Positions 43,401 through 43,550 of a stretch of DNA of 64,000 bases are shown one piece after another. The translations under genes and the position numbers were made by a program. Origin of the DNA: Planctomycetota bacterium (GTDB lineage: Bacteria > Planctomycetota > Phycisphaerae > Sedimentisphaerales > Anaerobacaceae); assembly GCA_013349615.1 (NCBI GenBank), contig DUZJ01000007.1, positions 1 through 64,000 of the forward strand, written 5' to 3'. The first letter of the stretch is position 1. Each line of letters begins with the position of its first letter. The notes under the pieces are model-generated. The model did no database searches. It was not told the DNA's origin and worked only from the letters and a program-made list of their open reading frames with translations.

Positions 43401-43511
43401 TCTGAAGTGAAGCTTTTGGAGCAATTCAACGCCCAATTCGCGCACTTCAGCAGCGATGCCCCGCCTTGCGATGTTTGTGGCTCGCTCACGGTCCGAAACG
43501 GAACCTGCTAG
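40473..43511 (+). CDS. nrdJ: B12-dependent (class II) ribonucleotide reductase
   Basis: NrdJ reduces ribonucleotides with adenosylcobalamin, without oxygen. The 1012-residue protein has the conserved core: [48 protein letters not shown] with the catalytic Cys and Glu, and [21 protein letters not shown]. A linker from about 735 leads to a TSCPD-like region ([19 protein letters not shown]) and a C-terminal Cys motif, [14 protein letters not shown]. GGAGG lies 7 bases before the ATG. The frame is cut by TAG at 43509-43511 just after NGTC; see the next entry. Confidence 0.95.
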   Translation: [1012 protein letters not shown]

Positions 43512-43550
43512 AAGTGCTTCAACTGCGGAAACTCAATGGGCTGCTCATAA
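43512..43550 (+). other. Intact nrdJ C-terminal tail beyond an in-frame TAG
   Basis: Immediately after the TAG, in the same frame, the codons read KCFNCGNSMGCS and then TAA (43548-43550). With the residues before the stop this restores the usual CDxCG...NGTC(Y)KCxNCG...GCS cysteine motif of class II reductases, where a Tyr normally stands at the TAG position. The tail therefore belongs to nrdJ and is either read through, recently lost, or a base-call error. Confidence 0.8.

Follow-up and report, generated by a model that had tools for sequence, protein, structure and literature searches.

An in-frame TAG in the cysteine tail of a class II ribonucleotide reductase gene, very probably a sporadic nonsense change in one draft genome

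The nrdJ gene and its interrupted tail

The window (the whole stretch of 64,000 nucleotides that was analysed) is contig C7 of the draft genome G000, which comprises 3.77 Mb in 157 contigs and is ~80% complete. It carries an nrdJ gene (Table 1) whose product contains the class II N-terminal domain and the ribonucleotide reductase (RNR) barrel (PF08471, PF02867; NF005122 above cut-off). An earlier note on this DNA had described the nrdJ frame as interrupted by a TAG that is followed by tail codons and then a TAA, and both sequence and coordinates bear this out: behind the coding part (40473-43508) and the TAG the same frame reads KCFNCGNSMGCS and then TAA, and the TAG is a genuine feature of the assembled sequence. 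The distal codons are undamaged, as that note had claimed, the 12 codons after the TAG giving the same protein sequence as in the congeners G003 and G004. When the TAG is read through, the score against NCBIfam NF005122 rises from 1327.9 to 1358.4 bits and the end of the alignment moves from model position 947 to 960, which is the end of the model. Because the match extends in this way and the 12 codons are identical in G003 and G004, the in-frame extension past the TAG is not a product of chance.

Table 1. Features of nrdJ and its 3' end in the window
Feature	Position	Strand	Remarks
nrdJ, class II (B12-dependent) ribonucleotide reductase	40473..43511	+	1012 codons then TAG; NF005122, PF08471, PF02867, PF12637
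Cysteine motif, part before the stop (Cys 999, 1002, 1012)	43467..43508	+	From translation; spacing identical to S. nassauensis Cys920/923/933
In-frame TAG, codon 1013	43509..43511	+	TAC/TAT (Tyr) in relatives, TTT (Phe) in G031
Tail remainder KCFNCGNSMGCS (Cys 1015, 1018, 1024)	43512..43547	+	Untranslated unless read through; identical in congeners
TAA, same stop position as congeners	43548..43550	+	From comparison with congeners

The six cysteines form the motif CX2CX9CX2CX2CX5C (spacing 2-9-2-2-5), and the TAG lies between the third and the fourth of them, at Tyr1013. The motif is thus incomplete within the reading frame, which holds three of the six cysteines before the TAG and all six only with readthrough; of the three that are lost, two are predicted to bind zinc and the third to belong to the redox pair. 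The cysteine motif named in the earlier note is therefore real and does continue past the TAG, but it consists of six cysteines, of which the stop removes only three.

Elsewhere in the window, genes for a TIR-domain protein, an N6/N4 DNA methylase with an Mrr-like domain and a second TIR-like protein adjoin one another (46267-49694) and possibly constitute a defence island. The match at 27154-27351 covers no more than the first 64-66 residues of a gene that is about 400 aa long in G003 and G004, and the rest is therefore missing or replaced in the window's genome.

Codon 1013 and the RNR complement in related genomes

Codon 1013 is TAC or TAT in G003 (90% identical), G004 (87%) and 25 further family members, and one of these two codons is present in every family member in which the site can be read, with the exception of G031, which has TTT (Phe); the TAG thus stands for the usual Tyr, as had been proposed. 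An order-wide pattern search, in which any T-initial codon was allowed at site 1013, recovered the motif in 125 of 161 genomes, with TAG solely in the window's genome, TTT in one genome and TAC or TAT in the others. A stop at this codon therefore occurs in one of the 125 motif-carrying genomes, and the alignment of related nrdJ genes that the earlier note had recommended yields no conserved TAG and a sense codon in every relative. A scan for TAA or TAG at the site across the 84,980 species' genomes of the genome_contigs collection, which may omit the window's own record, revealed neither codon in any nrdJ; its 10 matches were all out of frame in unrelated DNA and were rejected as recoded nrdJ genes, none being in the nrdJ frame. 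A DNA search of the plasmid collection gave no matches. Judged by these alignments and scans, the TAG is private to one MAG and its codon is not a conserved recoding site.

Across the class, two distant and fragmented drafts have C-terminal stops of their own, an in-frame TAA at the Lys codon adjoining the site in G164 and an in-frame TAG in the nrdJ linker in G185. Among the matches listed, the 245 C-terminal residues hold three stops (G000, G164, G185) and the 670-aa core holds one (G192, TGA); a C-terminal clustering was rejected, as counts this small are compatible with chance and every one of these drafts is fragmented.

The 3' end of nrdJ appears rearranged in some of the relatives. In G031 (L073, G031:C24, 1-2583) the nrdJ tail is followed by a reverse transcriptase (PADLOC RT_VI, 2.7e-67) and a second coding copy of the tail, which looks like a retron-bearing insertion into the end of nrdJ that brings its own gene end. 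G005 (L011, L072), G164 (L138), G020 and G395 also have second tail copies, either 275 to about 700 bp downstream or at other places in the genome, which suggests that insertions or duplications recur at the 3' end of nrdJ. A second tail copy was also looked for in the window's genome and, unlike in G005, G020, G031, G164 and G395, was not found.

Private codon changes in the window's nrdJ amount to 96 synonymous and 37 nonsynonymous ones, so that the ratio is intermediate between the values for G003 and G004. Three changes fall at otherwise invariant columns, which is within the range of the relatives, and two of these are in the tail, namely the Tyr to stop and an Ala to Pro immediately ahead of the first Cys (DAPACD to DAPPCD) that is likewise private to this MAG. 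Together the two tail changes weakly point to relaxed constraint there or to locally poor sequence; the barrel bears no sign of relaxed constraint.

The draft contains one copy of nrdJ and one divergent class II RNR (30% identity) on contig C124 (L071, 2069-3982; 637 aa). The latter has an intact barrel and intact active-site motifs (NPCGE, EACTLGSINL and SACFVLP) and is devoid of the TSCPD domain and the cysteine tail. This type of enzyme is kept in many family members, where the open frames are of comparable shortness (mostly about 620-640 aa), and the relatives retain both it and nrdJ. A class III RNR was not found in the ~80% complete genome. The earlier note had named Tyr in the relatives together with a second intact nrdJ in this strain as evidence against its own reading; the relatives do have Tyr, but the C124 enzyme, a divergent paralogue with no tail, does not amount to another intact nrdJ.

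Use of TAG and other interrupted genes in the draft

The genome encodes the release factor RF1 (prfA, 456 bits). Matches to PylS were sub-threshold, as in most control genomes, no tRNA-Sec scored above cut-off, and none of the 36 tRNAs detected in the ~80% complete genome has a CUA anticodon; the search for pyl genes or an amber suppressor tRNA proposed in the earlier note has therefore come out empty in that part of the genome. In a 464 kb sample TAG ends 59 of 269 ORFs, and the log-odds of the codons behind the stops are -0.026 bits per codon for TAG, -0.032 for TAA and -0.044 for TGA, compared with +0.131 within genes. TAG is thus an ordinary stop here with non-coding sequence behind it, in agreement with the earlier remark that it is a normal stop elsewhere (ligA). 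The predicted RNA fold of 43509-43640 is no better than that of shuffled sequences (z = -0.20), giving no sign of a stimulatory structure after the TAG, and a literature search returned no relevant earlier report of stop readthrough in an RNR.

Other genes of the same draft are interrupted as well, as seen in the 464 kb sample, which covers 12% of the genome. The recG gene (L158, 11249-13357) has a TAG after codon 200, so that the wedge domain is encoded ahead of the stop whereas the helicase and RecG C-terminal domains are encoded behind it; the gene is open in seven relatives, and the TAG stands where Ala, Lys or Arg occur. A phosphofructokinase gene (L154, 12760-14412) is split by a TAA where relatives with a readable site have CAA or CAG. 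In a phytase gene (L152, 12400-13785) a TAG lies within a dockerin-like repeat and the same frame continues beyond it, so that its C-terminal repeat has probably been cut by the TAG. Nonsense changes are therefore scattered across the draft. Noise from antisense frames kept an ab initio coding scan from yielding a rate of gene interruption. Two stop codons, TAG and TAA, are involved and the residues that they replace vary, so these interruptions give no hint of one reassigned codon. Comparison of 42 genes with the syntenic stretches of G003 and G004 revealed a clear interruption in nrdJ only, so gross errors do not abound in the draft. The sequence ahead of the phosphofructokinase (L154 upstream of 13200) is a repeat of about 100 translated residues that recurs at about 80 other places in G000 and has more divergent copies in relatives.

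Origin of the stop and comparison with known systems

The class II enzyme NrdJd of Stackebrandtia nassauensis has a tail with six cysteines (Cys920, 923, 933, 936, 939 and 945), all of which are needed for tail-driven turnover; replacing any one of them abolishes activity with TCEP whereas at least half of the activity with DTT stays, and the tails can serve other subunits (PMC5704485). If the TAG is truly present in cells, RF1 would terminate there to render an enzyme of 1012 residues that keeps the catalytic barrel and misses three of the six tail cysteines. By analogy with the S. nassauensis enzyme (PMC5704485), such a protein would complete a single round of substrate reduction, after which its normal electron source could no longer re-reduce it, and the cell would then rely on the divergent class II enzyme encoded on C124.

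The earlier note had left readthrough, reassignment and a very recent or erroneous change open as explanations, and our data point to the last of these: the TAG in nrdJ is very probably a sporadic, non-programmed single-base nonsense change (TAC to TAG) in one draft. This is favoured because the TAG is private to the MAG, with sense codons in all its relatives, and because in-frame stops break at least two further genes of the draft (recG by TAG, phosphofructokinase by TAA). The intact codons of the rest of the tail, the normal look of the private changes across the gene and the presence of RF1 agree with it, although a single replaced residue in an otherwise undamaged tail is what a readthrough site would be expected to look like too, and a suppressor tRNA could sit in the missing part of the MAG. 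The chances are about even that the base is a consensus or strain-mixture error, and a real recent mutation is a serious possibility. If the change is real and fixed in the strain, nrdJ may be in early decay because the C124 enzyme supplies deoxyribonucleotides, a tentative but credible reading that is consistent with the intact active-site motifs and wide retention of that enzyme and with the private Ala to Pro at an invariant position, a change compatible with a tail under relaxed constraint. The unrelaxed barrel of nrdJ, the lack of a tail and TSCPD domain in the C124 enzyme, the retention of both enzymes by relatives and the failure to find a class III RNR argue against such decay.

Programmed readthrough finds no support in conservation or in RNA structure. 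Low-level, non-programmed readthrough by a near-cognate tRNA (e.g. Tyr or Gln) is unlikely, even though the tail 3' of the TAG is intact and Tyr is among the residues that near-cognate decoding of UAG can in principle insert. A little full-length enzyme could then be enough, given that tails can serve neighbouring subunits, and S. nassauensis NrdJd has been shown to pass electrons from one subunit to another (PMC5704485); however, the downstream sequence folds no better than shuffles, no relative conserves the TAG, and the sequence behind other TAG stops is not coding-like. It is very unlikely that the TAG is both real and leaky in such a way that readthrough supplies a few full-length subunits, which then serve the active sites of their truncated neighbours in the oligomer, the stop setting the ratio of tailed to tail-less subunits. 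A general reassignment or suppression of TAG (by pyrrolysine, a selenocysteine-type system or a suppressor tRNA), with the TAGs of nrdJ, recG and the phytase gene as sense codons, would account for three of the four interruptions seen, but is extremely improbable in view of the RF1 gene, the sub-threshold PylS matches, the tRNA complement described above and the non-coding extensions behind ordinary TAG stops; moreover, the fourth interruption is a TAA, and the replaced residues differ (Tyr in nrdJ, Ala, Lys or Arg in recG).

A sporadic nonsense change at the level of the draft is thus enough to explain a catalytic motif split by a stop, closing a tempting lead towards recoding. Should the stop prove to be both real and leaky, nature would have supplied a test of the number of tailed subunits that a class II RNR oligomer requires.

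The window's nrdJ resembles S. nassauensis NrdJd (PMC5704485) in its barrel, its TSCPD region and the exact spacing of the six cysteines, but differs from it in having a TAG right after the third cysteine, so that the annotated product is without the last three. It shares with UAG recoding systems (pyrrolysine, natural suppressor tRNAs) an in-frame UAG with conserved codons after it; unlike in those systems, neither PylS nor a CUA tRNA was found in the ~80% complete genome, RF1 is present and the UAG is not conserved. The TAG is also similar to the ordinary nonsense substitution or consensus error of a MAG, which likewise affects a single base in one draft, with intact flanks and with unrelated genes similarly interrupted; unlike the usual error of this sort, the TAG hits an unusually informative catalytic motif and is hence eye-catching. 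Most likely the stop does not represent a new way of reading the code.
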